The position numbers and the translations under genes were made by a program. A stretch of DNA of 64,000 nt, taken from contig CANQRQ010000003.1 in assembly GCA_947626315.1 (NCBI GenBank), forward strand, positions 62,001 to 126,000. The letters run 5' to 3'. Shown here one piece after another: positions 3,211 to 22,091 of this stretch (positions are counted from its first letter, which is position 1; every line of letters starts with the position of its first letter). The notes under the pieces were generated by a model. It did no database searches. It saw only the letters and a program-made list of their open reading frames with translations, and was not told the DNA's origin. This stretch comes from an uncultured Oscillospiraceae bacterium (GTDB lineage Bacteria; Bacillota; Clostridia; Oscillospirales; Oscillospiraceae).

Positions 3211-3274
3211 TTTTACGGAAAAAAGTGATAAAATAAAATCAATCGTCACATGATTTTCAGAAGGAGCAGTCCTC

Positions 3275-4393
3275 ATGCCGAACGATCTGACCTTCTCCTC
3301 TGCCGCGGAGTATGACCACATTCTATACGGACAGATGACGCCCGCTATGGCCGCCTCCTATCTGCGGGACGGCAAGATCGCCCTGCGCAGCTTCAGCCAG
3401 ACGCTGCGGGAGATGGCGTCCACACCGGATCTTTTGAACTGCCTGACGGACTTTTTTCTCTCTGTCTCGCCGGAAGCCAACCCTCTCTCAGTGCGGCGCA
3501 AGATCCGCAACTGGCTCTCCGGGAAGTACCAGCCCTCCAGCCGGGAGGACATTTTCTGCATCGCCTTTGCCCTGGAGCTCAGCGAGCCGCAGTTGAACCA
3601 GCTGCTCTGCCTGTGTACGGACTACGGGATCCAGTACCGGAACGGCTGGGAGATGGTGTTCACCTGGTTCCTGCGCAGCGGCCGGAGCTACCGGCAGGCC
3701 CAGGCCTTTTACGCCACGCTGCCCCAGGCCCCCGGCCTGGAGCGGGTGGAGGGCCGGGAGGCCTCCAAGCTGACCCAGGAGCTGTACGGCGAATTTTTGA
3801 CCATCCAAACGGAGGAGGAGCTGTACGCCTGCTACTGCCGGAACCTCTCCCACTTCGGCTCCCTGCATCTGCGGGCCTATTACTACTTTGAGCTCTATTT
3901 AGGTCTGCTGATCCGCCCCTCCACCCCCTGGGCCGCCAAAGAGGAGCCGGACTACTCCCTGGAGACGGTGATGGACACCTACCTGACCGTCCATATTCCC
4001 AGAAGCCGGAGGCGGGACAACTACAGCCTGATCCAGCGGCTGGTGAAGCAGAACTGGCCCAACGCCACCTCCCTGAAAAACATCCGGCTGCACAAGGAGG
4101 ATGTGCCCCGGAAGCTGTTGCTGCTGCTGTACGTGGTAACGGAGAACGTGGGAGTGCAGAACAGCCCTTACGCGGAGGAGGACGAGGAGCCGGTCACCCT
4201 GGAGGAGCGGATGGAGGACCACTGGTGGACCCTGAACGCCCTGCTGGCCGACTGCGGCATGGCCCCGCTGGACCCCCGCAACGCCACCGACTGGCTGATC
4301 CTCTACGCCATCTGCGCCGATTCGGACCAGCCCATGAGCGAGCGGCTGGAGCAGGTGCTCAGCTTCGTCTTTGAGGACGTGGAGAATACATAA
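3275..4393 (+). CDS. Conserved hypothetical protein with XRE-like N-terminal region
   Basis: A 372-residue soluble protein; I do not recognise a named family. ATG 3275 is chosen because AAGGAG (3261-3266) sits eight bases upstream. Residues about 35-115 look like a degenerate helix-turn-helix: a run of short helices containing VRRKIRNWLSGKYQPSSRE and a following leucine-rich helix resembles XRE-type repressors. The remainder is mostly helical, rich in Trp, Tyr and acidic residues, with no membrane segment and no signal peptide. It follows the hybrid kinase on the same strand after 65 bases, so a role as cytoplasmic partner or regulator of that kinase is possible but unproven. A hairpin terminator follows at 4423-4464. 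Confidence 0.7.
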   Translation: MPNDLTFSSAAEYDHILYGQMTPAMAASYLRDGKIALRSFSQTLREMASTPDLLNCLTDFFLSVSPEANPLSVRRKIRNWLSGKYQPSSREDIFCIAFALELSEPQLNQLLCLCTDYGIQYRNGWEMVFTWFLRSGRSYRQAQAFYATLPQAPGLERVEGREASKLTQELYGEFLTIQTEEELYACYCRNLSHFGSLHLRAYYYFELYLGLLIRPSTPWAAKEEPDYSLETVMDTYLTVHIPRSRRRDNYSLIQRLVKQNWPNATSLKNIRLHKEDVPRKLLLLLYVVTENVGVQNSPYAEEDEEPVTLEERMEDHWWTLNALLADCGMAPLDPRNATDWLILYAICADSDQPMSERLEQVLSFVFEDVENT

Positions 4394-4422
4394 TTACCCT
4401 TGTTTAAATTTCATAAATTATA

Positions 4423-4464
4423 AAAAAGAGGAAAACGCAAAACAAAACGCGCTTTCCTCTTTTT
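4423..4464 (+). terminator. Intrinsic terminator after the hypothetical gene
   Basis: AAAAAGAGGAAAACGC pairs with GCGCTTTCCTCTTTTT with one mismatch. It leaves about a ten-base loop and a T-rich 3' arm, 30 bases after the stop codon. Confidence 0.6.
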
Positions 4465-4506
4465 ATTTTACAGAGACCGGCGGACTTTATTATACTGATT
4501 TTCTTT

Positions 4507-4549
4507 AAAAGGGGCTGTAGCAAAACACTTTTTCGCTACAGCTCCTTTT
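4507..4549. repeat. Dispersed palindromic hairpin, copy A
   Basis: A 15-bp stem (AAAAGGGGCTGTAGC against GCTACAGCTCCTTTT, one G-U pair) with the loop side reading CAAAACACTTTTTC. Closely related hairpins occur at 38852-38886 and 39279-39317. All share GGRCTGYAGC plus a GCAAAAC side. Confidence 0.75.
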
Positions 4550-4584
4550 ATAGCGCGTAGCGCGTAGAAAATCGCATGAGACGT

Positions 4585-4611
4585 CTTTTCGGCGGCAAAG
4601 CCGCCGAAAAG
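4585..4611. repeat. Perfect 12-bp hairpin with AAA triloop
   Basis: CTTTTCGGCGGC and GCCGCCGAAAAG flank AAA. No T-run follows, so it is not an obvious terminator. A hairpin of similar composition lies at 53368-53389. The rest of 4394-4670 holds only this, copy A of the dispersed hairpin, two terminator-like hairpins and a TAGCGCG direct duplication near 4550. Confidence 0.6.
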
Positions 4612-4633
4612 GGCGACGCTTCAAGCGGCGCCT

Positions 4634-4663
4634 CTCAAATAAAAAGTCACCTTTTTATTTGAG
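4634..4663 (-). terminator. Hairpin ending the phospho-signalling cluster
   Basis: CTCAAATAAAAAG and CTTTTTATTTGAG form a perfect 13-bp stem with a four-base loop, seven bases beyond the last stop codon of the minus-strand cluster. The stem itself provides the U-rich arm. Confidence 0.5.
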
Positions 4664-4670
4664 AATAGTA

Positions 4671-5600
4671 TTAAGAGTCCATATCTTCGTAGGTTAAGAT
4701 GCAGGCGTCGATCTCGCTCAGGGAGCTGTCCGAGACGGTCCATCTCTCCTCGCCATCCGTTGACTGTTTCACTACCTTGACCTCCAGGACCTGGGGCTCC
4801 TCATAACCCGACTCCGGGAGAAGTTCCCTCAGCAGAGCGATGATACCGTCGGCCCAATCCCGGTCAAAAGCCTGGTAGGTCTCCTCGTCCATATCGTCGG
4901 TTGACACATTGGCGTATTTCTCGCCAAACCAGTTCATTTCGCCGGCGTCAATGGCGTCCGTCAGACGGGTGATGATATCCATCGGGTAGACTGTCAGCTC
5001 CACGGTACAGGTTAAGAGCCCGTCGTAGGTGGCGGTACCGACCTCGTACTTGGAGCGGGAGTAGATCTCTTTAAACACATCGGACAATTCGGCCCGCAGA
5101 TCATCCGGCAGATATTCGATATCGATGTAGCTGGCGAAAAACTCGAGCTGTGTATCGATATTATTCAGGAAAATCTCCTCGGCCCCCGCCTCATCGAGGT
5201 CGGCGGTTTTCAGGAACTCTGTGTCATAGATTCCCCGGAAGAGTACATCCAGATTGCTCTGGACAAGCGTCTCTGCGTTTGCCCGTATCTCCTCCATCTC
5301 CTGCTCCTTGGCCCTCTCAGCGGCGTCATCCCGTATCTTTTCGATAAGGGCATAGCCCAGCACGAAAATGATGAGACCGATCACGATCGAAAGGACCCGC
5401 ACCAGAATGCGGCGGCTTTTTCCCTTCTGGGGCGGGGGAACCGGAGCGCCGGGCTGGGCGCCGGGGGAATATGTGCTGCCGCCCTGGGCAGAGGTGTACG
5501 CCTGCTGAGCCTGAGATGTGTAAGGCTGCTGGGCCCCGCAGGTCATGCAGAATTTCGCGTCGTCTTCCAGCTGCGCGCCGCAGCGAACACAGAATTTCAT
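4671..5600 (-). CDS. Zinc-ribbon single-pass membrane protein with extracytoplasmic domain
   Basis: 309 residues. The start is set at the ATG at 5600 because GGGAGG sits just upstream of it; an upstream in-frame ATG at 5618 would place that ribosome site inside the gene. The N-terminus is a zinc ribbon with two CxxC pairs (CVRCGA, CMTCGA). A Gln/Ser/Pro-rich linker and one membrane helix (about 68-92) follow, then an acidic ectodomain of about 210 residues of unknown fold. It is the last gene of the nine-gene kinase/phosphatase/FHA cluster, 36 bases after the beta-helix kinase. It shares the zinc-ribbon start with four other members, which suggests a common protein interaction or scaffold. 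No catalytic motif is visible. Confidence 0.8.
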   Translation of the reverse strand: MKFCVRCGAQLEDDAKFCMTCGAQQPYTSQAQQAYTSAQGGSTYSPGAQPGAPVPPPQKGKSRRILVRVLSIVIGLIIFVLGYALIEKIRDDAAERAKEQEMEEIRANAETLVQSNLDVLFRGIYDTEFLKTADLDEAGAEEIFLNNIDTQLEFFASYIDIEYLPDDLRAELSDVFKEIYSRSKYEVGTATYDGLLTCTVELTVYPMDIITRLTDAIDAGEMNWFGEKYANVSTDDMDEETYQAFDRDWADGIIALLRELLPESGYEEPQVLEVKVVKQSTDGEERWTVSDSSLSEIDACILTYEDMDS

Positions 5601-5636
5601 CGTTTCTTTTCCTCCCAATCTGTTTTTTCTAAAATA

Positions 5637-8600
5637 TCAGTTCATTTCCACCCTGCCATTGCCGGTGATGCGGGACACGTCAAAGCCATCCCTCGCAGAG
5701 AGGCTCATATGGCCCTCGTTGCGGATGCCCGCGTCGTTTCCAAACTGACTGCGCAGGCCGCCGACCCAGAAGTCTCCGTAGTTGACGATGCCTTCCGGAT
5801 CGTTATAGTTCAGGTTCAGGTTGAACTCGTTCCAGGAATCCAGCCAGACGTTGCCCCAGTTGGTTATGGTGCTGTTTCCGTTGACGGTCATGCCGGAAGC
5901 GATAAGCCGAAAAACCCCGTTGTCAGCGCCCTGACGGCCGATGGTCACCTGGCAGTCCTGAAGCTGCAAATCCCAGCCGCAGGTCAGGAACTGGCCCTGA
6001 ATGTCCAGCGTGCAGTCCGTCATGGTGCCGGCCCCCGTATGGAGCAGCGAGCTTTCCGCGTCCTCCACGGTGAAGCTTTCCCTGTACAGATCGCCTTCAT
6101 CCACGTAGGGCAGCACAAATACCGAGCCGCCGGCGATGCTGAAGTTGCAGCCGCCCTCCACCTGGCGGAAGGGGGTGACCACAGAGAGCGCCTGATTCTG
6201 CAGCCGCAGCGTGGCGCCGCCGATTTTCAGGAAACCGCTCCAACCCCGGAAAATAGAGTGGTCCAGGGTGAGCGTGCTGCTGCCGCCGAGGATCGTATCC
6301 CCCTCCATGCGCAGCTCCGCGTTCTCCCGCAGGGTGAGGTCTGTGGTAAAGTCCAGCCTGGCGGAGGTTTCGGACCAACCGTTCAGCAGATAGATCCGCC
6401 CGCCGGTGACGGTCAGGGTTCCCGGCCCGCCCAGGACCAGCGTGCCGGCCACGTAGATCGTGCGGCCTGGCGTCAGCTCATAGTTCTTGCGCAGAGGGAC
6501 CGTGACCTCGCCCTCGACCCGGATATCCCCGGAGCCCAGCTCCAGCTCCCGGAGGAAGTCCTCCTCCGTGGAGACCGGGACGGCCTCCGACGGCTCGTCT
6601 ATGCCGTTGAGGTGGATATAGGGCAGATCGTCCATATTGGTGAACTCGCCGGCGCCGAATACCGCGCCCAGCTGCTCGATGAAGCAGCCGTCGCCCCGGA
6701 TCAGGTGCCCCATGTTATCCAGGTAGACATTGTTGATCCGGCTGTTTTCGCCCCAGGTGAACTGGCCCCGATTTTCAATATAGCCGAAGTTGCGCAGCTG
6801 GCTGTCAGACTGGATCGTGAGCGTGCCGTAATTGGTCAGCCAGCCGCCCGAGGCGATCATCAGGCCGTCGCAGCCGCTGATGGCCTGAAGCGTGCCGTAG
6901 TTATCCATGTTGCCGTTGGCCAGGATCAGGTCCACCGCATTGATGGTGCCGCTGGGCTGGTTGAGGATACGGCCGCCCAGCCAGATGCGGGAATAGAAAT
7001 CAAACCAGGCCTCGCCTTCGTTGACCAGCGCGCTGCCGCCCTCCAGCCAGAAGCTGAAGGGGTCCTCGCGGGAACCGGCCTGCCCCAGATTCAGCAGCGG
7101 CGCGCCTGCGTTGGTGTAGAGACTGCCGTTGAGCGTGCCGCGGTTGAGCAGCGCGCCGCCCTCTTCCAGGCACAGCGTTCCCGAAATGCTGAAGCTGGAG
7201 CCCTCGGGGATGTACAGCGGCTGGGAGAGATTGTAGTCTCCCTCCAGGCGCAGATCCCCGTCCACAGAGAGCACCTTGCCTCTGTTGGCCCTGTCGTTCA
7301 CCAGGCGGTCCAGCTCCTCCGGGGAGGAGACGGAAAGCGCCTCGTCCGGTTCGATGTTCAGTGTCACAAAGTGGGCCATATCACGGACTGCCTCCTCGAC
7401 CTCCGGATCGTCCACCAGGAACTGCCCGTCCCGGTCAGCCCAGATGATTGCGTCCCCAAGGTCGAGCCCGGCGGTCTCAAAGGCGTGGAAGGAGCTGCCC
7501 TCCTCCAGACGCAGATAGCGGGTCTGGAAGTACCCGTCCACCTGGATCTGCCCGCCCTCGGTGAGAGTCAGGTTGTCGCAGAACAGTTTGGCCCCCTGCT
7601 CGATCCGCATGGGCTTGGTGACGGTGAGCCTTTCCGCGTACATCGACTCGTGGATCAGCACGGTGGAGATCTCCTCGTCCCAAAAGGCGTCCTGAAGCTC
7701 GTCGGGCCCGTGGCCGTCGCTGTAGTCCATGAGAAAGACGCCGCCCTGCAGGACCTCGCTCATGTTCGGGCCGCCGGAGAGGCTGGCCTGCCAGATCCCC
7801 AGGCCTCCGCACAGGAGAAACAGCGCCAGGACGGCCGCGTACACCAGCAGGCGCTTGCCCCGGCCGGGCTTGGGCGCCGGCTCCGGCTGTTCCTCTGTCT
7901 GCTCTTCTATCTGCTCTTCTGCCTGCTCTTCTGCCTGCTCCTCTGTCTCGTTTTCTGTCTGTTCCTCCGGCGTGTCCGTCAGCTCCTCCTGGGGCTCCTC
8001 CCCGTCGGTGGTGAGAGGGAACTCTTCCTCCGTGCGCTGATGGATGCTTCCGTCGGCCACATTCACCGTCATGCCGGAGATGATCGGCTCCGGCGGAACA
8101 GGCTCCGGGATGGGTTTGGGCGGAATCGGGAGCGGCTTCGGGTCGTCGTCATCGTCCTCCACGGGCGCGTCCTCATACAGCGCCGCGTGCAGCTCCGCCA
8201 CGGACTGGAACCGGCGGCGGGGCTGGATGCGCAGGCCCTTCAGCAGCGCCCGCTCCTCCTGCTCCGTCAGATGTACGCCCAGCTTGGTGGGCAGCAGCAG
8301 CGTGTCCTCTCCGATCCGGTCCAGGGCCTGGGGAGGCGCTTTCCCCACCAGGCAGTAGTAGAGCGTGGCGCAGAGGGCGTAAATATCCGTCCAGGGGCCC
8401 TGGCCCTTCTGCCGGTACTGCTCCAGAGGGGCGTAGCCGTGCTTGAGGGCGATGGTCAGGGTCTCCTTGCCGCCGCTGGTCTCCCGGGCACAGCCAAAGT
8501 CCAGCAGGCGGACCTTGCCGTCCTCCAGCATCAGGTTGTCCGGGGAGATATCCCGGTGAATCAGGCCCGTCTCGTGGAGCATGGACAGGGCTTTGAACAG

Positions 8601-9122
8601 GGGCTCCACCATGGGGAACAGCTCCTCCGGCGGGATGCGCCCGCCCTTCTTCTCCACCAGCTCCTTGAGGGTGATGCCCTCCACGTACTCCATCACGATG
8701 TACACCGTGTTGTTGGTCTCAAAGAAGTCCCGCACGCTGACGATGGCCTGCTGTTTGTCCATCCGGGCCATGATCCGGGCCTCTTCCAGGAACTTCTGCT
8801 TGCCCCGCTCATAGCTCTTGGCGGCGGCGCCCATGAAGCTGGTCACATCGGCCGATACGGAGGCGTTGCGGGTGGCCCGGTCCACCGGATAATACTCCTT
8901 GATGGCCACCTTCATCTCCAGGCGCAGGTCGCAGCCGATATAGGTAATGCCAAAGCCCCCTTCGCCCAGGACCCGGCCCACCAGGTAGCGGTCCATCAGG
9001 ACCGTGCCCGGCGGCAGATGGTGGGGGGAGGGCACGTAGGTTCCCGCCGTCAGGCCGCAGACGGAGCAGCTCTCCCCCTCCGGAACCGGGGACATGCAAT
9101 AGGGGCAAAAATGCTTATCCAC
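5637..9122 (-). CDS. Transmembrane Ser/Thr protein kinase with zinc ribbon and beta-helix-like ectodomain
   Basis: 1161 residues from a GTG start preceded by GGAGATGAGG. Order: zinc ribbon (C6, C9, C19, C22); Hanks-type kinase about 45-310 with glycine loop GEGGFG (53-58), lysine K75, HRD 189-191, N196 and DFG 208-210, so catalytically intact; a Pro-rich segment; a Glu/Gln repeat tract; a membrane helix about 423-446; then about 700 outside residues. The ectodomain has many short repeats of the form N-x-G-x-L/F and no cysteine clusters. It resembles a right-handed parallel beta-helix, as in adhesins and polysaccharide-binding proteins. By family knowledge it phosphorylates cytosolic Ser/Thr targets, and the ectodomain probably senses envelope or surface ligands. 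FHA proteins and PP2C phosphatases in the same operon are the likely readers and erasers. Confidence 0.9.
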   Translation of the reverse strand: MDKHFCPYCMSPVPEGESCSVCGLTAGTYVPSPHHLPPGTVLMDRYLVGRVLGEGGFGITYIGCDLRLEMKVAIKEYYPVDRATRNASVSADVTSFMGAAAKSYERGKQKFLEEARIMARMDKQQAIVSVRDFFETNNTVYIVMEYVEGITLKELVEKKGGRIPPEELFPMVEPLFKALSMLHETGLIHRDISPDNLMLEDGKVRLLDFGCARETSGGKETLTIALKHGYAPLEQYRQKGQGPWTDIYALCATLYYCLVGKAPPQALDRIGEDTLLLPTKLGVHLTEQEERALLKGLRIQPRRRFQSVAELHAALYEDAPVEDDDDDPKPLPIPPKPIPEPVPPEPIISGMTVNVADGSIHQRTEEEFPLTTDGEEPQEELTDTPEEQTENETEEQAEEQAEEQIEEQTEEQPEPAPKPGRGKRLLVYAAVLALFLLCGGLGIWQASLSGGPNMSEVLQGGVFLMDYSDGHGPDELQDAFWDEEISTVLIHESMYAERLTVTKPMRIEQGAKLFCDNLTLTEGGQIQVDGYFQTRYLRLEEGSSFHAFETAGLDLGDAIIWADRDGQFLVDDPEVEEAVRDMAHFVTLNIEPDEALSVSSPEELDRLVNDRANRGKVLSVDGDLRLEGDYNLSQPLYIPEGSSFSISGTLCLEEGGALLNRGTLNGSLYTNAGAPLLNLGQAGSREDPFSFWLEGGSALVNEGEAWFDFYSRIWLGGRILNQPSGTINAVDLILANGNMDNYGTLQAISGCDGLMIASGGWLTNYGTLTIQSDSQLRNFGYIENRGQFTWGENSRINNVYLDNMGHLIRGDGCFIEQLGAVFGAGEFTNMDDLPYIHLNGIDEPSEAVPVSTEEDFLRELELGSGDIRVEGEVTVPLRKNYELTPGRTIYVAGTLVLGGPGTLTVTGGRIYLLNGWSETSARLDFTTDLTLRENAELRMEGDTILGGSSTLTLDHSIFRGWSGFLKIGGATLRLQNQALSVVTPFRQVEGGCNFSIAGGSVFVLPYVDEGDLYRESFTVEDAESSLLHTGAGTMTDCTLDIQGQFLTCGWDLQLQDCQVTIGRQGADNGVFRLIASGMTVNGNSTITNWGNVWLDSWNEFNLNLNYNDPEGIVNYGDFWVGGLRSQFGNDAGIRNEGHMSLSARDGFDVSRITGNGRVEMN
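7870..7975 (-). repeat. Short tandem repeat coding Glu/Gln-rich linker
   Basis: A degenerate 15-base unit encoding EEQAE/EEQTE-type pentapeptides lies between the kinase domain and membrane helix of the 1161-residue kinase. It is likely a flexible spacer and prone to length change. Confidence 0.6.
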
Positions 9123-9182
9123 AAGGCCTCATCTCCTTTACTGAGTTTACACCCGTTTTTCTCACGGTCAAATACTTTTCTT

Positions 9183-10187
9183 TCAAAATTTCCTCTCTGT
9201 TTCCCGGCTGGGCGTACCGTACAGAGCCGTATACATCTCCTCCATGGACTGAAACCGGTCCCTGGGGAAGAGATTCAGGGCCTTGGAAAGGTTCTCTCTC
9301 TGCCGGGGCGTGAGGGCCACGCCCGGCCAGAAGTCATAGTTTGGCGTTTCATCATTTTCATAGAAACGTTCCAGCGCGTTGTGCAGCAGGCTCCCGTTCA
9401 GGCAGTAGGTCATCAGAACGGCCAGCCCGTAGACATCGGTCCAGGGGCCCAGCCTTTTCGTTCCCTGTATCCGCTCCAGCGGGAAAAAGCGAGGGGGCGT
9501 AAACGGGCCGCTTGAGCCGCCCAGTTTATCCTCCACCTTCTGCTCGGTCATGTCCCAGCAGAAGGTGGGGATCCGCAGCTTCCCGTTTTCCACCATGATC
9601 TTATCCGGGGAAAATTCCGCCCGGTAGCGCCCCGCCCAGTGGAGAGCGGTCAGAACGCCGTACAGGGGCTCCGCCATGGGGAACAGCTCCTCCGGCGGGA
9701 TACGCCCGCCCCGCTCTTTCACATAGGCGCTGAGAGGCATCCCTTCATAGTCTGTCACATAGTACGCCGTGTTATTGGCCGGGAACAGGTCCCGGATGCC
9801 GACAGCGCCCGGTGGGTTCCCAATCCGGGCCGCCTCCAGCACCTGCGACAAAAATTTCAGCTCCAGCTCGTAATAGAGCTTCTCTTTCTTCTGATTGTAG
9901 AAGGTGGGCGCATCTCCGTCGCCGTCCAGGCCGCGGTGCGCCAGGATCTTGGAGAAAAACTCCACGACGACCACCAGCTTGTCCCGGCGCAGATCCCGGC
10001 TCAGATAGCGGAGCTGCAGGTTCTCCTCGTCCAGGACCCGGCCCAGCAAATAGCAGCCCGCCAGGATCGTGCCCGGCGGCAGATGGTAGAAGACGGGCAC
10101 ATAGTCTCCCGCTGCCCGGCCGCAGACAGGGCAGAGCCCGCCCTCCGGGACCGGGGACATGCACCAGGGGCAAAAACACGCATACAC
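9183..10187 (-). CDS. Zinc-ribbon pseudokinase, degenerate paralogue of the neighbouring kinase
   Basis: 334 residues from a GTG start with GAGGAGG upstream. The first 210 residues align without gaps to the downstream 1161-residue kinase, including the zinc ribbon C6, C9, C19, C22. Every catalytic landmark is lost: glycine loop GEGGFG becomes DEENLQ (53-58), lysine 75 is V, HRD 189-191 is RAE, N196 is K, and DFG 208-210 is TFC. Structural segments such as GGRIPPEELFPM are kept almost unchanged and the frame is intact. This is therefore a maintained pseudokinase, not decay. It has no membrane helix. It lies between the two active kinases, with gaps of 60 and 40 bases. By analogy with other pseudokinases it may be an allosteric activator, scaffold or decoy. 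Confidence 0.85.
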   Translation of the reverse strand: MYACFCPWCMSPVPEGGLCPVCGRAAGDYVPVFYHLPPGTILAGCYLLGRVLDEENLQLRYLSRDLRRDKLVVVVEFFSKILAHRGLDGDGDAPTFYNQKKEKLYYELELKFLSQVLEAARIGNPPGAVGIRDLFPANNTAYYVTDYEGMPLSAYVKERGGRIPPEELFPMAEPLYGVLTALHWAGRYRAEFSPDKIMVENGKLRIPTFCWDMTEQKVEDKLGGSSGPFTPPRFFPLERIQGTKRLGPWTDVYGLAVLMTYCLNGSLLHNALERFYENDETPNYDFWPGVALTPRQRENLSKALNLFPRDRFQSMEEMYTALYGTPSRETERKF

Positions 10188-10227
10188 AGGGGCAAGCCTC
10201 CTCTACAGAGCATCCTTCAGCGCCCTT

Positions 10228-11370
10228 TCATGTGAGGGCGAAGATCAGCAGCAGCACGGCGGCGCCGATCAAAATGCCCACCAAAAGCTTGTTTTCCCGC
10301 AGCCAGCGTCTGATCTTCTCCGCCGCCGTCTCCGGGACATAGGGCGGAATGGGGTCAGGCAGCGGCGAGGGAGGAGGGGGAGGTGGGGGAGGAGGCGGAG
10401 GCGGGAACCGGGCCAGAAACTCCTCTACGCTCTGGGGCCGGCTTTTGGGCTGGATCCCGAGGCCCCACATCAGAACCATCTGCTCCTCCTGGCCGATGTT
10501 CACCCCCAGAGCGGCGGGCGCTGGCAGAGGGTCCGGCTGCCCGTCCACGGAGGCCATCAGCCGGTCCGGCGCCGCGGGGGGCACCTTCCCGGTGATGCAG
10601 TAGAAAATCGTGGCGCACATGGCGTAAAGATCGGTGCAGGAGCTCTGGCCCTGGGTGGTGTACTGCTCCAGCGGGGCAAAGCCCGGCTTGAGCACAACGG
10701 TCATGGACCGGCCGTCCTCCATAGAGCGGGCGCTGCCAAAGTCCAGCAGCTTAAAGCGGCCGTCCGGAAGGCGCATGATATTGTCCGGGGCGATGTCCCG
10801 GTGCAGGACCCCCGCCTTGTGCAGACGGTCCAGGTCCTGCAGCAGGGGCAACATGTCTTTCATCAGCTTGTCGAAGGGCAGGGGACCCTGCCGCTCCACT
10901 ACCTCCTGCAGGGTGGAGCCGTTCAGGTACTCCATCACCATGTAGGCGGTGCCGTTGGTCTCAAAAAGGTCCTGGATCTGCACCACGGAGGGGATCTGCC
11001 CCGCCGCCCGGAGCATGCTGGCCTCGCTCAGAAAGCTGCGCAGGCCGTGGTTGTAGTTCTCCTCCATCTCCGGCAGGATGCTGACGCTCCCATCCGCGCC
11101 CCGCTGGGGCTGGCAGCGGACCGGGAAATACTCCTTGACGGCCACCATATGCCCGGCGTTCATGTCGCGGCCCACGTAGGTGATGCCGAAGCCCCCTTCG
11201 CCCTTGATGCGGCCGATCAGATAGCTGTGTCCGCTCTGGCCCTGAAGGGTCGTGCCAACGGGGAGCTGATGGCTGGCGTTTTCCTGGCCGGCCGGCTCCC
11301 CGCAGGAGGGGCAGAAGCCCGCTCCTGCCGGGAGCTTTTCCATGCAGCAAGGGCAATATTCCATTGCCAT
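10228..11370 (-). CDS. Ser/Thr protein kinase with zinc ribbon, polyproline linker and C-terminal membrane anchor
   Basis: 380 residues. The start is ATG 11370, one base after the upstream stop; GGGAGG overlaps the end of that gene. The zinc ribbon (C6, C9, C20, C23) is followed by an intact kinase domain: GEGGFG 57-62, K79, HRD 190-192, N197, DFG 210-212. A run of about 14 prolines near 326-339 leads to a single membrane helix at about 357-378 with almost nothing beyond it. The kinase is thus held at the inner face without an ectodomain. It could phosphorylate neighbours in the cluster or be driven by the sensor kinase next door. The polyproline tract could bind a partner but may only be a spacer. 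Confidence 0.9.
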   Translation of the reverse strand: MAMEYCPCCMEKLPAGAGFCPSCGEPAGQENASHQLPVGTTLQGQSGHSYLIGRIKGEGGFGITYVGRDMNAGHMVAVKEYFPVRCQPQRGADGSVSILPEMEENYNHGLRSFLSEASMLRAAGQIPSVVQIQDLFETNGTAYMVMEYLNGSTLQEVVERQGPLPFDKLMKDMLPLLQDLDRLHKAGVLHRDIAPDNIMRLPDGRFKLLDFGSARSMEDGRSMTVVLKPGFAPLEQYTTQGQSSCTDLYAMCATIFYCITGKVPPAAPDRLMASVDGQPDPLPAPAALGVNIGQEEQMVLMWGLGIQPKSRPQSVEEFLARFPPPPPPPPPPPPSPLPDPIPPYVPETAAEKIRRWLRENKLLVGILIGAAVLLLIFALT

Positions 11371-11371
11371 C

Positions 11372-12775
11372 TTACTTGCCTCCCTTGATCGCTATGGTGA
11401 AGCTCTCCTTCGGGGAACCCAGGTAAAAGACGTCTCCCTGATGCAGCTCTACGGCCTGGTTGCCCGCCAGACGGGTGCCGGGCTGGACATAGGTGCCGTG
11501 GGAGGAGCCCAGATCCTGCAGGAAGACCTTGCCGTCCTTGACCCAGAGCCCGCAGTGGCGGCCGCTGACGCCCGGCGTGTTCGCCGGGAACACAACGTTG
11601 CACCGCTGAGGGTCGCGGCCCAGAACCACCGGGCTGCTCTTGCGCAGCATGAAGCGCTGCCCGTTCAGCGTGCCGGAGACGCCCTGGATGCGGAAGCCGG
11701 AGTCGTCCGCGCCGGCGTTGGAGGACGCGGCGGAGACGGCGGGCACAGCCGGGGCCGTGGGCGGGAAGCTGGGAGCGGCCGCCGGGCCGGAGGGCGCGGT
11801 ATAGGCCGGCTGCTTAGCGGCGGCGGACTTGCGCTTCATGATCAGCACCACCGCCACCACGACCGCTATTACGGCCAGGGCCGCCACGACCGCCCAGATC
11901 ACCGGGAAGGTGGGAGTGGGTCCGGGTCCGGGAGTGGGTTCAGGGACGGGTTCCTCCGGCGCGGGGGTGGGCGTCGTATCATCGTGCAGGATGAAGGGCA
12001 CGCCGTTGCGCCGCAGGATCGTGATCGCCTCGTCGATGTTGACCGCGTAGTTCAGCGACTCTCCATCCGCGATAACGCCGCTGGTATTAATGCCGACCAC
12101 ATCGCCGTCATCGGTCACCATGGGACCGCCGGAATTGCCGTGGAAGATGTCAGTGTCCGTCTGGACTTGCCGGATGGAGGTGCCGTTCTCCGTAAAGAGC
12201 CGGCTGATGGTACCGGTGGTAATGGACATATCCTCCAAGCCCCACTGAGTAGTGGGGTTGACGGCCACATTGTCAGAGATACCGGGGAAGCCGAGGGCGT
12301 GGACCGTGGTCCCCACCATGTCGGAGGTCGGGATACGCAGCGCCAGCGGAACGCGCTGATCGGTGGGCTTTTCCAGCCGTAGCAGAGCCAGGTCCGCGGT
12401 TTCACTGTAGTCCACGACCTGGGCGCCCAGATAGGTGTCGTTGTCAAAATGCACACGGACAAGGCACCGGGCGACAGCTCCGGATTCAAAGGATATTAAT
12501 TTACCGGAGTTCCATTCCAGGTAAGTATCCACTACATGGTGGTTGGTGATCAGGTATTCCGGATCTTTGCCTTCTTCGCCTATAAAGAAGCCGGAGCCGG
12601 AACTGTAGGGAATGGTGCCGACATCTAGTATATCAAGGTAGATGGCCACAACGGCCACACCGTTGCGGGCCTGGTTGTAGCTGGAAACCTCTCCGCCGGC
12701 TGCGGCGGCAGCCGGGACCAGCAGCGTGCAGAACAGGCACAGGCAGAGCGCCAGAGCGAATAACCTCTTTTTCAT
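11372..12775 (-). CDS. HtrA/trypsin-like membrane serine protease with C-terminal FHA domain
   Basis: 467 residues with a signal peptide (about 1-25). The protease domain outside the cell has H80 (TNHHV), D128 (TADLALL) and S215 (GNSGGP), a complete S1C-type triad. No PDZ domain is seen. A Pro-rich linker leads to a membrane helix at about 291-315, then a linker and a cytosolic FHA domain at about 375-460 (GRDPQR, SGRHC, SSHGTY). The FHA end should bind phosphothreonine made by the cluster kinases, so phosphorylation inside could recruit or control a protease outside, or the reverse. The start ATG follows AAGGAG. The gene is followed one base later by a kinase. Domain calls are strong; the direction of signalling is inference. 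Confidence 0.9.
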   Translation of the reverse strand: MKKRLFALALCLCLFCTLLVPAAAAAGGEVSSYNQARNGVAVVAIYLDILDVGTIPYSSGSGFFIGEEGKDPEYLITNHHVVDTYLEWNSGKLISFESGAVARCLVRVHFDNDTYLGAQVVDYSETADLALLRLEKPTDQRVPLALRIPTSDMVGTTVHALGFPGISDNVAVNPTTQWGLEDMSITTGTISRLFTENGTSIRQVQTDTDIFHGNSGGPMVTDDGDVVGINTSGVIADGESLNYAVNIDEAITILRRNGVPFILHDDTTPTPAPEEPVPEPTPGPGPTPTFPVIWAVVAALAVIAVVVAVVLIMKRKSAAAKQPAYTAPSGPAAAPSFPPTAPAVPAVSAASSNAGADDSGFRIQGVSGTLNGQRFMLRKSSPVVLGRDPQRCNVVFPANTPGVSGRHCGLWVKDGKVFLQDLGSSHGTYVQPGTRLAGNQAVELHQGDVFYLGSPKESFTIAIKGGK

Positions 12776-12836
12776 ATGCTTTTCTCCTTCTTTTCTCTTT
12801 TTTTTGATCTGTTTTATCCTGATTTTATAAAGAGCA

Positions 12837-13550
12837 TTATATGTCCAGCCAGACGGCTGCGGCGGTGTTGTTGTCGTTATCGGGGGGGACGCGGCTTATA
12901 AGCAGGGCGCGCATGGCGTCCAGCCAGGCCTGGGGGCTCCGGGACGCCTGGAGCGTCTGCTCCATCTCCCGCTCCACTACATACTCCCAGAACCCGTCGG
13001 AGCAGAGCAGGAACGCGTGCCGCCCGGGGGGGAGCCACTTTTCGCCCGTGTCCACGGTGAGGCCCCCCTCGGCGCCCAGGGCCCGGAAGATCCGGCTCCG
13101 GTCCTCGTGGAAGCGGATCTGCTCGGGGCTGATCTGCCCCAGGGCCACGGCGATCTGGGAGGCGCTGTGATCCTGGGTCTGGTAGACGATGGAGCCGTTC
13201 TGGAAATGGTACAGCCGGCTGTCCCCCACGTGGGCCCAGTCCATGCGCCCCTGCTCCAGCAGCAGCACCGCCACGGTGGACTTCATTTTGCAGGCGGCGG
13301 TCTGCATGGAGAGGACCGTCCGGTGGGCCGCCTGTACCAGCTCCGTCAGGGAAGCGGGGGTGGAGCTGCCCGTCCAGCCCTCCAGGATCGTCCTGGCGGC
13401 CGCCTGGGAGGCCCGGTCGCCTCCGCCGTGGCCGCCCAGGCCGTCCGCTACCAGCACGCAGGCCCGGTCGCTGCCGATGGTCCGGATGCCCACGGTGTCC
13501 TCGTTGCAGGGGCGTCCGCCGATATCGGAGTAGCTTGCGGTTAAAATCAA
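12837..13550 (-). CDS. PP2C-family protein phosphatase (soluble)
   Basis: 237 residues, about the size of a minimal bacterial PP2C. Metal-binding motifs are present: NED near residue 16, DGLGGH near 37-42, a GDSR motif near 107, SDGF near 186 and DNNTA near the C-terminus. It should remove phosphate from Ser/Thr residues placed by the cluster kinases, using two Mn/Mg ions. The start is taken as TTG 13550 because AAGGAGG lies upstream inside the last codons of the preceding gene and no better start exists. Only five bases separate it from the membrane PP2C upstream, so the two are translationally linked. It has no membrane segment. Confidence 0.9.
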   Translation of the reverse strand: MILTASYSDIGGRPCNEDTVGIRTIGSDRACVLVADGLGGHGGGDRASQAAARTILEGWTGSSTPASLTELVQAAHRTVLSMQTAACKMKSTVAVLLLEQGRMDWAHVGDSRLYHFQNGSIVYQTQDHSASQIAVALGQISPEQIRFHEDRSRIFRALGAEGGLTVDTGEKWLPPGRHAFLLCSDGFWEYVVEREMEQTLQASRSPQAWLDAMRALLISRVPPDNDNNTAAAVWLDI

Positions 13551-13555
13551 GAGGA

Positions 13556-14587
13556 TCAGTCCTCCTTTTCCTCAGAATCGGACAGCCCCCCCACGCACTG
13601 GAGGATGATGCCCGTGTAGTTGTCCTGGTTCACATAGCCCTTGCCGGCGATCAGCTCGTTGAGCCGGTTGGCGGCCTCCTCCGCGTCCCCCGCCAGGGCG
13701 GCGCAGAGCTCGTCCGGCTCCAGGGCGTTGTAGATGCCGTCGCTCATGAGGATGAATTTATCCCCGGGCCGCGCGGTCACAGGCTCGGCAGGGATGTCGA
13801 TATACTTCACCTGGCCCATGCCTACGAAGCTCACAAGCCCGCCGCCCCGCTCGTCCGCGTAGGCCTCCTGGAGGGAGATCTCCCCGTTGACGGCCCGCAG
13901 CGCCAGATCGTTGCGGAAGATGTGCTCCCGGTTCAGAAGCATCAGAGCCCCGTCCCGCAGGAGATAGATGTGGCTGTCCCCCAGGGAGAGGAAGCTGAAG
14001 CGCCCGTCCTTCAGCAGGCCGATGGCCAGGGTGGACCCGCTCTTGCGCAGGCCCTCCTCCCCCAGCATACGGTTCACCTGCTGCACCGCCTGCCGGGTCA
14101 GCTCCAGCAGCTGCCACTCCGGCTCCTCCGGCGGCAGATAGGGGAAGGCACCCAGGATCGTCTCCACGGTGGCCATGCTGACCTTGTCGCCGTCCTCCAG
14201 GCCGCCCATGCCGTCGGCCACGATGGCCAGCAGGCCGTGGCTCGGGATCAGCGCCGGGTCAGACACGGCAAAGCAGTCCTGCTGGTACTCCCGGGCCCCC
14301 TGGGCGTGGAGCTTACCCACCTTGATCTGGGCGACCTCCGCGAACCCGGCGGACTCGGCGGGCGGCTCTGCCGGGCGCAGCTTTTTGCGCAGGCGGCTGT
14401 TTTTGATCAGCAGAAGGACCACCGCCAGGGCCAGCACGGCCGCCAGCGCGGCCAGGGCGATCGTCAGGACCGGCGGCAGAGAGAGCAGCGCCGGCCCCGC
14501 GGCCGCCGGAGCGGCCTCCGCCGCCAGGTCAGGGGAGGGGGCGGCTGTCACCTGCGCCCCCAAAAGGCTGAGTTGTCCTTGTGTCAT
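13556..14587 (-). CDS. PP2C-like protein phosphatase with N-terminal membrane anchor
   Basis: 343 residues. An Ala/Pro-rich start and one membrane helix (about 37-62) followed by a basic stretch (RLRKK) place the phosphatase domain in the cytosol. PP2C motifs: QQD near 98, DGMGG near 121, GDSH near 202, SDGIY near 280 and a late DNYTG. The usual GDSR arginine is H here and the final motif is DNYT, not DNxT, so specificity may differ from the soluble copy next door. Start ATG 14587 has GGAG upstream and lies nine bases after the preceding stop. A membrane and a soluble phosphatase side by side parallel the membrane and soluble kinase-fold proteins of the cluster. Confidence 0.88.
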   Translation of the reverse strand: MTQGQLSLLGAQVTAAPSPDLAAEAAPAAAGPALLSLPPVLTIALAALAAVLALAVVLLLIKNSRLRKKLRPAEPPAESAGFAEVAQIKVGKLHAQGAREYQQDCFAVSDPALIPSHGLLAIVADGMGGLEDGDKVSMATVETILGAFPYLPPEEPEWQLLELTRQAVQQVNRMLGEEGLRKSGSTLAIGLLKDGRFSFLSLGDSHIYLLRDGALMLLNREHIFRNDLALRAVNGEISLQEAYADERGGGLVSFVGMGQVKYIDIPAEPVTARPGDKFILMSDGIYNALEPDELCAALAGDAEEAANRLNELIAGKGYVNQDNYTGIILQCVGGLSDSEEKED

Positions 14588-14596
14588 GGCGGTCTC

Positions 14597-15325
14597 CTAC
14601 TTGTTCGAGTTGTTCCAGGAGAAGTGCTCCCCGCACAGGCCTACAAACAGCAACTCCGTGGTGCCGATGGTGATGCGGTCAAAGTCGTGCAGCTCCGTGC
14701 CGCCGCCGATCACCGGCAGGTCGTTGACCAGCAGCACGTTTTTCCCCTGTTCGTGGGCGATGTAAAAACGGTTGGTCTGGGGGACGTAGGTGATGTTGGA
14801 ATCCCGCTCCCCGGAGATGGTCTGGTCGCCCCGGATGCAGATGTCGCCCGTCTCCCGGCCGATGTAATTGTAGCCGGTATGGATCCGGAAATCGGTGCCC
14901 CGGCAGGGGCCGTTCACCGCCACCAGCCAGCCCACCACGGGAGAGGGAGCCCCCGCGGGCGTGGCGCTGTCCACAAACTGGGTCTGGCTCATGCGGGAGG
15001 AGAGGCCGCTCATCTGCTCAGGGGTCTTCGTCTGGGCAAAGCTGCCGTTCACGGACGGCTGCCCCGGATACGAGGTGGGAGCGGCCGCCAGCGGGTCGAT
15101 GGTTTCGGAGAAGTTGCCCTGAAGGCCGCTGACCGTGCCGGGGTAGGCAGTGGCAAAGTCGGCAGGGTTGGAGACGCCGCCAGGGTTGGGGAAGCCGCCA
15201 TAGGGGTCCTGGGTGGGCGCGAAGCCGGCCTTCCCGCCGCAGAAGGGGCAGGTGGCGTCCTTGATCGCGTCGTAAAAATTGTGGCACACAGGGCAGGGGA
15301 CGATTTTCTGATGGATTTCAGCCAT
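14597..15325 (-). CDS. Zinc-ribbon protein with C-terminal FHA-like domain
   Basis: 242 residues. The start is supported by AGGAGG nine bases upstream. The N-terminal zinc ribbon has CPVC and CPFC pairs. A Gly/Pro/Ser/Thr-rich, probably disordered linker (about 40-125) follows, then a beta-rich FHA-like domain (about 130-235) with YIGRETGDI and a late INGT-like region. The canonical SxxH is less clear (SGERDSNI). It could be a phosphopeptide-binding adaptor, or its Thr-rich linker could be a kinase substrate. It lies between the DUF805-FHA gene and the phosphatases. Nothing suggests enzyme activity. Confidence 0.78.
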   Translation of the reverse strand: MAEIHQKIVPCPVCHNFYDAIKDATCPFCGGKAGFAPTQDPYGGFPNPGGVSNPADFATAYPGTVSGLQGNFSETIDPLAAAPTSYPGQPSVNGSFAQTKTPEQMSGLSSRMSQTQFVDSATPAGAPSPVVGWLVAVNGPCRGTDFRIHTGYNYIGRETGDICIRGDQTISGERDSNITYVPQTNRFYIAHEQGKNVLLVNDLPVIGGGTELHDFDRITIGTTELLFVGLCGEHFSWNNSNK

Positions 15326-15355
15326 GATGGAATACCTCCTGTTTTTTTCCTCTTT

Positions 15356-16048
15356 TTATTGTACAACTATTTGGAATAACAATTTTGGGGAGCCCAGGGA
15401 GAAGCGGGTGCCCGCGGCCACCGGCTCCGGATAGTGGGGGACCAGGCGTTTCCCGTCCCCGGTGTAGGTGCCGTAGGTGGAGCCCAGATCCACCAGCTCC
15501 GGCACGCCCTGGTTGTAGCGCAGCAGGCAGTGATTGCCGCTGAGGCCGGGGGTCCCGTCGGGCATCCGCACCGAGCAGTTGGGATTGCGGCCGAACAGCA
15601 GGCCCTGGCTGCCCAGGGGATAGGTCTGCCCCTGGAGGGGCCCGGCCAGGCAGCGGACCGCCAGGCTGCCCATGGCCGCCGGCTGCGGGGAAACCGGCCA
15701 GACCGGGGCGGCCGCCCCCTTCGGGTTGGGGCCGTAGCGGTTGGCGCCGGGGGCGCTGTCCTGGGCGAACCAGACGATCAGCAGGATCTCGCCCACCAGG
15801 GGGACGAGCATCAGAAACAGGTAAGCGCCGCTGCGCCCCGTGTCGTGCAGGCGGCGGGCGCCGACGGCCAGGGTGGGGACCAGCACCGCCAGAGAATAGA
15901 GCATGGACACCGGGGCCAGGGGCGTATAGAGAAAGACGGAGACAATGGCGTTGAGCAGGGCGAAGTACCAGTACTCGCTTCGCCGGGCGCGGCCGCTGAA
16001 ATTCGCGTAGTTCCGGAACACGTGCTGCAGAGCCTGAGAGAAATTCAC
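15356..16048 (-). CDS. DUF805 membrane protein with C-terminal FHA domain
   Basis: 230 residues from GTG 16048. That start is chosen over an ATG at 16123 because GGAAGGGAGG precedes it and the protein then begins as DUF805 proteins usually do (NFSQALQHVFRNYANFSGRA). The DUF805 part has about four hydrophobic segments (residues 20-105) and the family signatures RARRSEYWYF and ARRLHDTGRSG. The FHA domain (about 130-225) has GRNPNC, SGNHC and GSTYGTY, with the pThr-binding R, S and H intact. It is the first gene of the nine-gene cluster, so its level may set the operon. Probable role: membrane-bound docking site for phosphorylated partners. DUF805 itself has no firmly known function. Confidence 0.85.
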   Translation of the reverse strand: MNFSQALQHVFRNYANFSGRARRSEYWYFALLNAIVSVFLYTPLAPVSMLYSLAVLVPTLAVGARRLHDTGRSGAYLFLMLVPLVGEILLIVWFAQDSAPGANRYGPNPKGAAAPVWPVSPQPAAMGSLAVRCLAGPLQGQTYPLGSQGLLFGRNPNCSVRMPDGTPGLSGNHCLLRYNQGVPELVDLGSTYGTYTGDGKRLVPHYPEPVAAGTRFSLGSPKLLFQIVVQ

Positions 16049-16160
16049 GGGGAGCCCTCCCTTCCTTGCCGGGATTTGATTTCCAGTCAATATTTTACAA
16101 GCTTTATTTTGCCGTTTGTCCATGTTCTTTCCCTGGGGTGACGGAAAAGATTAAAAGCTT

Positions 16161-16188
16161 AAAATAGGAAAAGTATCTTGATTTTCAA
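16161..16188 (-). promoter_or_regulatory. Candidate promoter of the phospho-signalling cluster
   Basis: On the minus strand: -35 TTGAAA, a 16-base spacer, -10 TATTTT, upstream of GTG 16048. Its -35 overlaps the -35 of the divergent promoter, so the two could compete or share a regulator. The match is modest. Confidence 0.3.
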
Positions 16189-16207
16189 CATAGGTACGTT
16201 GTATAAT
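16178..16207 (+). promoter_or_regulatory. Promoter of the coiled-coil protein and signal peptidase operon
   Basis: TTGATT, 18 bases, TATAAT. It is the best sigma-A-type match in this divergent intergenic region, about 100 bases ahead of the start at 16311. Confidence 0.6.
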
Positions 16208-16221
16208 AATATGAGATGCAT

Positions 16222-16290
16222 AATTATGGCGATCCATGCCTGTTTGCCAGGCCGGAAGGCGCGAAGCGGCTTCTCCGGCCCGCCATATTT
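16222..16290 (+). promoter_or_regulatory. Structured 5' leader (possible cis-acting RNA)
   Basis: Inside the predicted 5' UTR an outer stem (AATTATGGCG with CGCCATATTT, one mismatch) encloses two competing hairpins. One is GCCTG/CAGGC (16238-16252). The other is a longer GC-rich hairpin from 16250 to 16280 (GGCCGGA against TCCGGCC, inner CGC-GAA-GCG). The two share bases 16250-16252, so they are mutually exclusive, as in a switch. It matches no riboswitch class I can name. No terminator-like T-run follows; the ribosome site GGTGA (16300-16304) is ten bases beyond the outer stem. Confidence 0.4.
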
Positions 16291-16310
16291 GTAAAAGCTG
16301 GTGACAAAGA

Positions 16311-17024
16311 GTGACTTCTAAGGAATTACACAGATTAAACCGGCGCGACCTGCTGCAGCTTCTCCTGGCCCAGAGCGAGGAGGCCGAGCAGACCCGGCAG
16401 GAACTGGAGGAGGCGACCGCTCAGCTCAGCCTGGTGAGCGCCAACTATGAGCGGCTGCGCAAACGCCTGGACATGAAGGACGAGCAGATCCGCGAGCTGC
16501 GGACCGTACTCCAGACCGAGCGCACCCGCCGGGAGATCGAGCTGAACGAGGCGGGGAACATCGCCGAGGCGGCGCTCCGTCTCAACGGGATCTTCCAGGC
16601 GGCCCAGGAGGCGGCAGATCAGTATCTGCACAACATCCGGCTTCTCAGCGAAGGCGGCATTCCCGCCCCCGCGCCGCTGCCGGAATTTTCGGAGGACGAC
16701 GAGCCGCCGTTCCCCCCGGCGGAAGAGCTGAAGCCGGAGACCTCCGCGGAGCCGGAGACCCCCGCGGAGCCGGAGACCCCCGCGGAGCCGGAGACCCCCG
16801 CGGAGCCGGAGCCCCCCGCGGAGCCGGAGACCCCTGCAGAGCCGGAGACCCCCGCGGAGCCGGAGACCCCTGCAGAGCCGGAGACCCCCGCGGAGCCGGA
16901 GAGCTCTGCGGAGCCGGAGAGCTCTGCGGAATCAGAAGTCCCTGTGGAGCCGGAGATGAAGAAGGCCCGGAAGTTCTCCCTCTTTAAGCACAAAAAGGCG
17001 TCCGGGGCGGAGGGCAATTCATGA
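16311..17024 (+). CDS. Coiled-coil protein with Pro/Glu tandem repeats
   Basis: 237 residues from a GTG start, with GGTGA seven bases upstream as the ribosome site. Residues about 10-110 form a long, Glu/Arg/Leu-rich coiled coil. Residues about 140-215 are a six-residue repeat (EPETPA and variants, about twelve copies). The last 25 residues are basic (KKARKFSLFKHKK), so the molecule is strongly polarised in charge. There is no signal peptide or membrane helix. It overlaps signal peptidase I by four bases (ATGA), so the two are made together. It is transcribed divergently from the kinase/phosphatase cluster, whose kinases could phosphorylate its repeat threonines and serines; that link is speculation. 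I do not recognise a family. Confidence 0.75.
   Translation: MTSKELHRLNRRDLLQLLLAQSEEAEQTRQELEEATAQLSLVSANYERLRKRLDMKDEQIRELRTVLQTERTRREIELNEAGNIAEAALRLNGIFQAAQEAADQYLHNIRLLSEGGIPAPAPLPEFSEDDEPPFPPAEELKPETSAEPETPAEPETPAEPETPAEPEPPAEPETPAEPETPAEPETPAEPETPAEPESSAEPESSAESEVPVEPEMKKARKFSLFKHKKASGAEGNS
16730..16935 (+). repeat. Tandem repeat, 18-base unit, in coding sequence
   Basis: Near-perfect copies of an 18-base unit (GAGCCGGAGACCCCCGCG) with a few base changes encode the EPETPA repeat. The nearly identical DNA suggests recent expansion and likely length variation between strains. Confidence 0.85.
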
Positions 17025-17638
17025 GCGAGGAAAAAAAGAAACCGGAGCAGGGCGAGCAGAAAAAAGCGCCGGTGGAGCTGCCCTCCATTGATCAGCTCCG
17101 GGAGGAGCTGTCCAAGGAACAGTACAGGCACAGCTATAACCGGATTTTGCGCAGCACCATCTTTTCCCTGCTGGTGGTGGCGGCGGTGGCCGTGCTGCTG
17201 GCCGTGCTGCTGCTGCCGGTCCTGCGCATCAGCGGCACCTCTATGACGGAGACCCTCAGCGACGGAGACATCGTTGTGGCGATCACCGGCCGGAACTATG
17301 ACCCGGGCGACGTGGTGGCCTTTTACTACAACAACTCCATTCTGGTCAAACGGGTGATCGCCACTGCCGGGGACTGGGTGGATATCAAGGATAACGGCGA
17401 CGTGTACGTCAATGACGAGCTGCTGGATGAGCCCTACGTGAACGAGAAGGCCCTGGGCGAGTGCGACCTGGACTTTCCCTACCAGGTGCCCGATCAGAAA
17501 AACTTCCTGATGGGGGATCACCGGGCCACCTCCATCGACAGCCGCAGCAGCACCGTGGGCTGTGTGGACAACGGCCTGATCATCGGCAAGATCGTGTTTC
17601 GGGTCTGGCCGATGGCCAGCCTGGGCCTGGTGCGCTGA
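17021..17638 (+). CDS. lepB: Signal peptidase I (S26), Gram-positive type
   Basis: 205 residues. A charged cytosolic N-terminus of about 45 residues, longer than usual, precedes one membrane helix (about 46-68). The Ser/Lys dyad is S74 (SGTSM) and K110 (LVKRVIA), followed by the conserved GDHR and SIDSR boxes. It cleaves signal peptides on the outer face of the membrane. It overlaps the coiled-coil gene by four bases, and a strong terminator lies 18 bases after the stop. Several exported proteins of the window (the HtrA-FHA protease and others) could be substrates; the link to the divergent cluster is by position only. Confidence 0.93.
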   Translation: MSEEKKKPEQGEQKKAPVELPSIDQLREELSKEQYRHSYNRILRSTIFSLLVVAAVAVLLAVLLLPVLRISGTSMTETLSDGDIVVAITGRNYDPGDVVAFYYNNSILVKRVIATAGDWVDIKDNGDVYVNDELLDEPYVNEKALGECDLDFPYQVPDQKNFLMGDHRATSIDSRSSTVGCVDNGLIIGKIVFRVWPMASLGLVR

Positions 17639-21916: not shown

Positions 21917-22023
21917 AAGAACACCGCCTTCCGATTGAATTTTACCATAGACGCACGGGAAAAGCAACGTGTAACTGCCTGCAAAAAAGCGACAGCCGCG
22001 CCCGTTCTCCCGCCGTCTTTGGG

Positions 22024-22068
22024 AAAAGGGGGCTTTGAAAAGAGCGAAACGCTTTTCAAAGCCCCCTT
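22024..22068 (-). terminator. galE: Terminator after galE
   Basis: AAGGGGGCTTTGAAAAG and CTTTTCAAAGCCCCCTT form a 17-bp stem with a nine-base loop. On the minus strand it ends in a short T-run. It lies 24 bases beyond the galE stop. Confidence 0.6.
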
Positions 22069-22091
22069 GGAACGAACAGACGCCGGGGGGC

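Follow-up and report, generated by a model that had tools for sequence, protein, structure and literature searches.

Nine closely packed genes on one strand form a real and recurrent signaling unit that is probably undescribed. They lie in the window, meaning the whole 64,000-nucleotide stretch of an uncultured Oscillospiraceae bacterium analyzed here, and encode serine/threonine (Ser/Thr) kinases, PP2C phosphatases, FHA proteins and a membrane protease. We call this gene block the island. The reading we prefer, held tentatively at just short of an even chance, is that the island constitutes a self-contained system for transmembrane Ser/Thr phospho-signaling. Among open-licence PubMed Central (PMC) papers, we found neither a description of the unit nor a paper pairing DUF805 with an FHA domain.

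Layout of the island

The features are listed below from the first gene of the putative operon to the last, followed by the bordering features. ZnR denotes a zinc ribbon and TM a transmembrane segment.

15356..16123, minus strand: DUF805-FHA, a DUF805 membrane domain with an FHA domain; first gene of the operon (DUF805 97 bits, FHA 43.8 bits)
14597..15325, minus strand: ZnR-FHA, an adaptor of ZnR, linker and FHA domain; anchor gene, with Thr115 as candidate phospho-switch (family profile matching GarA/OdhI FHA structures)
13556..14587, minus strand: TM-PP2C, a membrane-anchored PP2C phosphatase (PP2C_2 52.1 bits; metal-site Asp)
12837..13550, minus strand: soluble PP2C phosphatase (PP2C_2 41 bits; metal-site Asp)
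11372..12775, minus strand: HtrA-FHA, with signal/TM, trypsin-like (HtrA-type) protease, TM and FHA domain (Trypsin_2 93 bits, FHA 59 bits)
10228..11370, minus strand: ZnR, Ser/Thr kinase and C-terminal TM, no ectodomain (Pkinase 101.2 bits; TM at residues 362-380 of 380)
9183..10187, minus strand: ZnR pseudokinase without TM, lacking K, HRD and DFG (alignment)
5637..9122, minus strand: receptor kinase of ZnR, Ser/Thr kinase, TM and an ectodomain of about 717 residues (predicted right-handed beta-helix)
4671..5618, minus strand: ZnR-TM, whose C-terminal part is extracytosolic; ends the operon in this genome (zinc ribbon 34.8 bits)
3275..4393, plus strand: c3, an all-alpha partner protein of 372 residues, convergent with the operon (recurrence in 80 loci)
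4423..4464: 17-pair stem-loop separating c3 from the operon and a candidate terminator of the latter (consensus scan only)
16161..16250, minus strand: three clustered promoter-like sites upstream of the operon (consensus scan)

An earlier note on this DNA had listed two kinases, a pseudokinase, two PP2Cs, three FHA proteins, a membrane protease and ZnR-TM, and all were recovered by Pfam, alignment or family profile. The nine open reading frames (ORFs) are on the minus strand throughout and closely packed as it had described, with intergenic gaps of 18, 60, 40, 1, 61, 5, 9 and 30 bases, and five of the proteins begin with the double CxxC that it had reported. Pfam assigned Pkinase to two proteins (115.5 and 101.2 bits), PP2C_2 to two others, Trypsin_2 with FHA to one and DUF805 with FHA to one. 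The DUF805-FHA frame has two possible starts, an ATG at 16123 or a GTG at 16048, the latter being the earlier choice. Hydropathy indicated one TM each in both membrane kinases, TM-PP2C and ZnR-TM, and two each in HtrA-FHA and DUF805-FHA. Basic residues beside these segments, as read directly from the sequence, suggest that the kinase, PP2C and FHA parts are cytosolic, as had been proposed for the phospho-reading and -writing domains; the zinc ribbons of the kinases are likewise predicted to face the cytosol. The consensus scan gave 13 promoter-like sites in 3200-17100 versus 2.6 (SD 1.4) in shuffles; the sites upstream and the stem-loop after the last gene fit a single transcript, without being proof of one.

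Conservation and spread of the unit

The locus set was the best 80 of 461 confirmed relatives from a scan of named genomes with the ZnR-FHA alignment. They were ranked by similarity to the window, which favors close relatives. The set includes near-duplicates (e.g. L062/L066, L108/L109 and L115/L116) and loci on contigs identical to those in the genome samples (e.g. L114 = G005, L090 = G046 and L129 = G178), and 24 of the 80 are truncated at an end. Genes were counted as consecutive when they followed each other among recognized core genes on the plus strand, disregarding intervening spurious ORFs.

ZnR-FHA and TM-PP2C were consecutive in 73 of the 80 loci, and a five-gene run with a terminal kinase was seen in 48. 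TM-PP2C was present in 74 loci, a kinase in 72, the soluble PP2C in 65 and HtrA-FHA in 62, and the recognized members of the three big clusters were uniform in strand (263/263, 81/81 and 140/140). DUF805 occurred in 16 loci; many others have a two-TM FHA protein at the equivalent position. The unit was also held by 11 of 15 loci taken from relatives (L040-L049 and L054). One carrier of the island, Flavonifractor sp. An82 (L077), is cultured and not a pathogen. Repeated co-occurrence and synteny, the test named beforehand, were thus strongly borne out. Accidental adjacency of otherwise scattered homologs, one of the outcomes named as counting against the proposal, is contradicted by this synteny and was discarded. 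ZnR-TM was also discarded as a core member: it had no homolog at E<=1e-3 among the ORFs of the 80 loci (best E 0.008) and is probably not a core part. The proposal of a single envelope-facing signaling system is well supported by the anatomy, with the corrections that ZnR-TM does not recur and that a recurrent partner, c3, had been omitted.

The unit is widespread yet patchy. Strong ZnR-FHA matches (E<=1.1e-39) were found in 28 of 295 genomes of the order, rising to 42 at E<=1e-6, and in the phylum sample 17 of 398 genomes matched at E<=2.8e-45 and 39 at E<=1e-10. A search with HtrA-FHA matched 20 of 150 genomes of the family, some of these matches being plain HtrA. Separately, a Subdoligranulum plasmid gave a hit (H27).

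Sixteen distant Bacillota loci were of two kinds. Six hold the membrane unit, and ten (L176, L178-L184, L186 and L187) instead place ZnR-FHA and PP2Cs beside an Hsp70/actin-like ATPase of 877-924 residues (38-71% identity to the first). Besides ZnR-FHA and TM-PP2C, these ten encode a second PP2C that is extended, by TPRs or otherwise. L176, the sole one examined by Pfam for this, also encodes DnaJ and a pair of phage baseplate-hub (GPD) proteins. Phospho-control of a chaperone- or contractile-type system is a possible role of the ten loci. Because ZnR-FHA and PP2Cs stand beside this ATPase in distant loci, the pair makes up a more general core, able to serve other machines.

The Hsp70-type loci bear on a different explanation, that the island controls a secretion or contractile apparatus encoded elsewhere in the genome, as the PpkA/PppA/Fha pathway controls the type VI secretion system (T6SS). 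The kinase, PP2C, FHA and VWA logic is common to that pathway, and a Tistrella T6SS cluster includes a PP2C, a kinase and a vWA protein. However, no such machine recurs in the flanks of the 80 loci, where no ORF family beyond the core and c3/c4 appeared in more than four loci. The earlier note had stated that no T6SS or type VII secretion (T7SS) genes are near; T6SS genes were absent from the island (Pfam) and not recurrent in those flanks, no search aimed at T6SS sheath genes having been made. WXG100 (PF06013) had no match in the bacterium's own genome, with controls positive in 2 of 14, and a T7SS link was discarded on this ground. The Hsp70-like family also had no match there, in a search without a positive control. 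We consider this explanation unlikely.

FHA proteins and a candidate switch threonine

ZnR-FHA starts with a zinc ribbon, and a linker rich in threonine leads from it to the FHA domain. PF00498 fails to detect this domain, but at E 9e-9 to 3e-6 the family profile (A4) matches solved FHA structures, namely those of GarA, TB39.8 and OdhI. A further query, A5, had no match to solved structures up to E 10. In GarA and OdhI, control is exerted by phosphorylating a threonine that precedes the FHA domain, and their profile match to ZnR-FHA starts upstream of the domain. A threonine exactly 15 residues ahead of VVGW, at the start of the FHA domain, was present in 50 of 76 ZnR-FHA proteins, and in the window it is T115 within QTQFVD. 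All 76 have TxP or TxxP motifs in the linker. The 76 are the 81 locus sequences less six without the VVGW anchor, plus the window protein.

The phosphothreonine-binding FHA motifs given in PMC1262709 are GR, SxxH and NG. ZnR-FHA proteins have R in 81, S in 80, H (shifted by one) in 57 and N in 77 of 81. HtrA-FHA homologs keep R in 58 and S and H in all 63, and DUF805/TM-FHA proteins keep R in 29 and S and H in all 36. The usual Asn, however, is present in none of the 63 HtrA-FHA and just one of the 36 DUF805/TM-FHA proteins, with Tyr or His in its place. This weighs against the mechanism proposed below: since the Asn is missing, these two kinds of FHA domain may read another ligand or bind differently.

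Through one or more TMs, the FHA domain is fused here to an HtrA-type protease or DUF805, and in other loci to PrsW or VWA. In L133 (8637-13286), a relative of the island from a Butyrivibrio metagenome-assembled genome, two ECF sigma-like proteins with a TM and an extra C-terminal part adjoin VWA-FHA.

Protease, phosphatases and kinases

The protease and both PP2Cs of the island are intact by their conserved residues. HtrA-FHA has the triad H80, D128 and S215, with D128 (in DLALL) being what we take to be the triad Asp; among 63 homologs the His is kept in 62, the Asp in 63 and the Ser in 62. Each of the four metal-site Asp of the soluble PP2C was found in 65/65 homologs, and those of TM-PP2C in 75, 75, 74 and 73 of 75. 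In the pseudokinase, alignment with its paralogs showed the VAIK lysine replaced by V, HRD by RAE and DFG by TFC, and Pfam gave no match. All three motifs were absent from 4 of 139 kinase-like ORFs of the 80 loci (two in L057, one each in L059 and L125), in a three-motif count by simple regular expressions, which undercounts. The beta-helix call for the receptor kinase ectodomain rests on VIA-align; in Foldseek, whole-length TM-scores were below 0.25 and a single match had E <0.001.

The island kinases scored 159.6 and 115.8 bits against NF033483 (PknB_PASTA, cut-off 450) and the PP2Cs 138.9 and 84.1 bits against NF033484 (Stp1/IreP, cut-off 230), so a housekeeping PrkC/Stp identity was discarded. 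In the own genome (2.68 Mb, 68 contigs), Pkinase, PP2C_2 and PF00498 each have three matches. Because two of each three sit in the island, their concentration there is beyond chance. The remaining kinase is the housekeeping PASTA kinase (514.8 bits) and the remaining phosphatase is Stp1 (246.6 bits), both on contig C46. The remaining FHA domain is fused with FtsW/RodA next to a penicillin-binding protein (PBP) transpeptidase gene (contig C6; L056 11126-14193), a pair that is a possible FHA-controlled cell-wall synthase.

The FHA-FtsW/RodA protein could be a shared target if the island instead governed growth and the cell wall, in the manner of the mycobacterial pknB-pstP-fhaA locus, duplicating the housekeeping PASTA kinase. 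Kinase, PP2C and FHA genes are co-located in both, and the FHA domains resemble the GarA and TB39.8/FhaA structures. By Pfam, though, the island lacks PASTA domains as well as PBP and SEDS genes, and a housekeeping kinase/Stp1 pair already exists elsewhere in the genome. The island is also patchy, with strong ZnR-FHA matches in the 28 of 295 order genomes given above. Such a role is improbable in our estimate.

Patchiness would suit an anti-phage or other conflict system employing a kinase and a protease, and ZnR-kinase/PP2C/vWA sets are known in conflict systems, according to PMC7159879. The PADLOC kinases MAD6 and PD-T4-6 resemble the island kinase domains (E to 1.4e-48), but these matches are confined to the kinase part and are listed for dozens of kinase families, and the cut-off of NF047741 (MADS6) was missed (110.8 of 460 bits). 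In addition, the ectodomains and the exported protease point outwards, and Pfam, NCBIfam and PADLOC found no cell-killing effector family in the island, nucleases included. We give a conflict system little chance.

The partner protein c3

c3 was found in 38 of the 80 loci, and in 31 of these it lies 2-296 bp past the last core gene and convergent with it. Twenty-five aligned homologs are 47-61% identical to the window protein. c3 belongs to no Pfam, NCBIfam or PHROGs family and had no match in phages. Its AlphaFold2 (AF2) model has a pLDDT of 82, and the best Foldseek match to it had E 1.1. Residues 39-117 gave a weak helix-turn-helix match, possibly XRE-like, and hhalign against XRE domains was likewise weak. 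Eight of 295 genomes of the order had c3 at E<=3.2e-164, leaving out two weaker matches (1e-7 and 9e-7); beyond the order, only the own genome matched in the sample of 398. Cluster c4 was discarded as a separate gene, as it corresponds in 10 loci to the antisense frame of c3. In L167 (10504-13850), c3 stands beside a lone ZnR-kinase with no FHA or PP2C genes nearby, which is perhaps the smallest form of the system.

Flanking genes

The island region is bordered on both sides by a hybrid histidine kinase (226-3210 and 18989-22252), each of which carries a pair of receiver domains. A signal peptidase I gene (17021-17638; 114 bits, cut-off 47) lies just past the island's divergent neighbor. Farther along, 43604-50674 encodes a giant GH94/glycoamylase-type enzyme of 2356 residues, which presumably resembles cyclic-glucan synthases.

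Proposed mechanism

In a self-contained phospho-signaling system, the beta-helix ectodomain would bind a glycan or surface protein and thereby control its kinase. The kinase would then phosphorylate threonines, foremost the conserved T115 of the ZnR-FHA linker. Phosphorylated T115 might be bound by ZnR-FHA's own FHA domain, or by those of the membrane proteins, as in GarA/OdhI. FHA binding could cluster or switch the FHA-tethered surface protease, and the signal may be handed to c3 as a cytosolic output, possibly acting on DNA. The PP2Cs would reset the system.

A more specific version, a form of inside-out protease control not described before, is speculative, and we think it has a modest chance of being right: cytosolic threonine marks set by beta-helix receptor kinases and read by FHA domains would switch proteases (HtrA-FHA, PrsW-FHA) that act outside or within the membrane, across one bilayer, with c3 carrying the signal to the genome, in a module spanning Bacillota and an alphaproteobacterial plasmid. 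If true, regulation of an exported protease by cytosolic phosphorylation through a single membrane would be a new principle. The gene block is compact and, by strong ZnR-FHA matches, present in about one tenth of sampled genomes of the order. Several of its parts can be named: the receptor kinase, whose predicted fold is carbohydrate-lyase-like; a threonine that may act as the switch; a protease that is tethered to FHA and has its triad intact; and the unnamed family c3. To gut bacteria that sense host or dietary glycans, it would add a candidate route next to two-component systems and anti-sigma factors.

Comparison with known systems

The earlier note had seen writers, readers and erasers in one unit and taken this to suggest an undescribed system. 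The unit stands, but its kind is already known. In the T6SS threonine-phosphorylation pathway (PMC5995506), kinase, PP2C and FHA proteins are encoded together, a membrane FHA protein reads the phosphorylation, and some members have VWA. The island differs in adding HtrA-FHA, DUF805-FHA and a beta-helix kinase, and no T6SS gene is in the island or recurrent in the flanks of the 80 loci, the rest of the genome not having been searched for T6SS. The actinobacterial pstP-pknB-fhaA/fhaB locus also has a writer, an eraser and two FHA readers, according to PMC6554272, whereas the nine island proteins lack PASTA, RodA and PBP domains. By analogy, the island appears to work like both, and by the tests made it is a member of neither.

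Like GarA/OdhI, ZnR-FHA has a threonine-bearing linker ahead of its FHA domain; it differs by its N-terminal zinc ribbon, longer linker and setting among membrane kinases, and the profile match is no proof that the threonines are equivalent. The GAP1-N2 systems of actinobacteria share a zinc-ribbon kinase, a beta-rich domain or TM and a PP2C partner, according to PMC7159879, while in the island no GTPase/GAP1-N2 component was identified and FHA and HtrA parts are central. A Leisingera plasmid cluster (L191 9767-17659) encodes a kinase, FHA, PP2C, a zeta-toxin-family protein and two dynamin-family proteins, a set that differs from the island.

A cluster of similar composition is on plasmid AZO_p4 of Azospirillum lipoferum 4B (NC_016587.1), where VWA-FHA, FHA, PP2C, PP2C, HtrA-FHA, FHA-kinase-DUF805 and kinase genes form one run. 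The host is a diderm, the annotation is by domain names only, and the gene after the kinase did not match c3 (hhalign). Since this cluster repeats the combination, including the rare HtrA-FHA fusion, it argues that the parts of the island work together.

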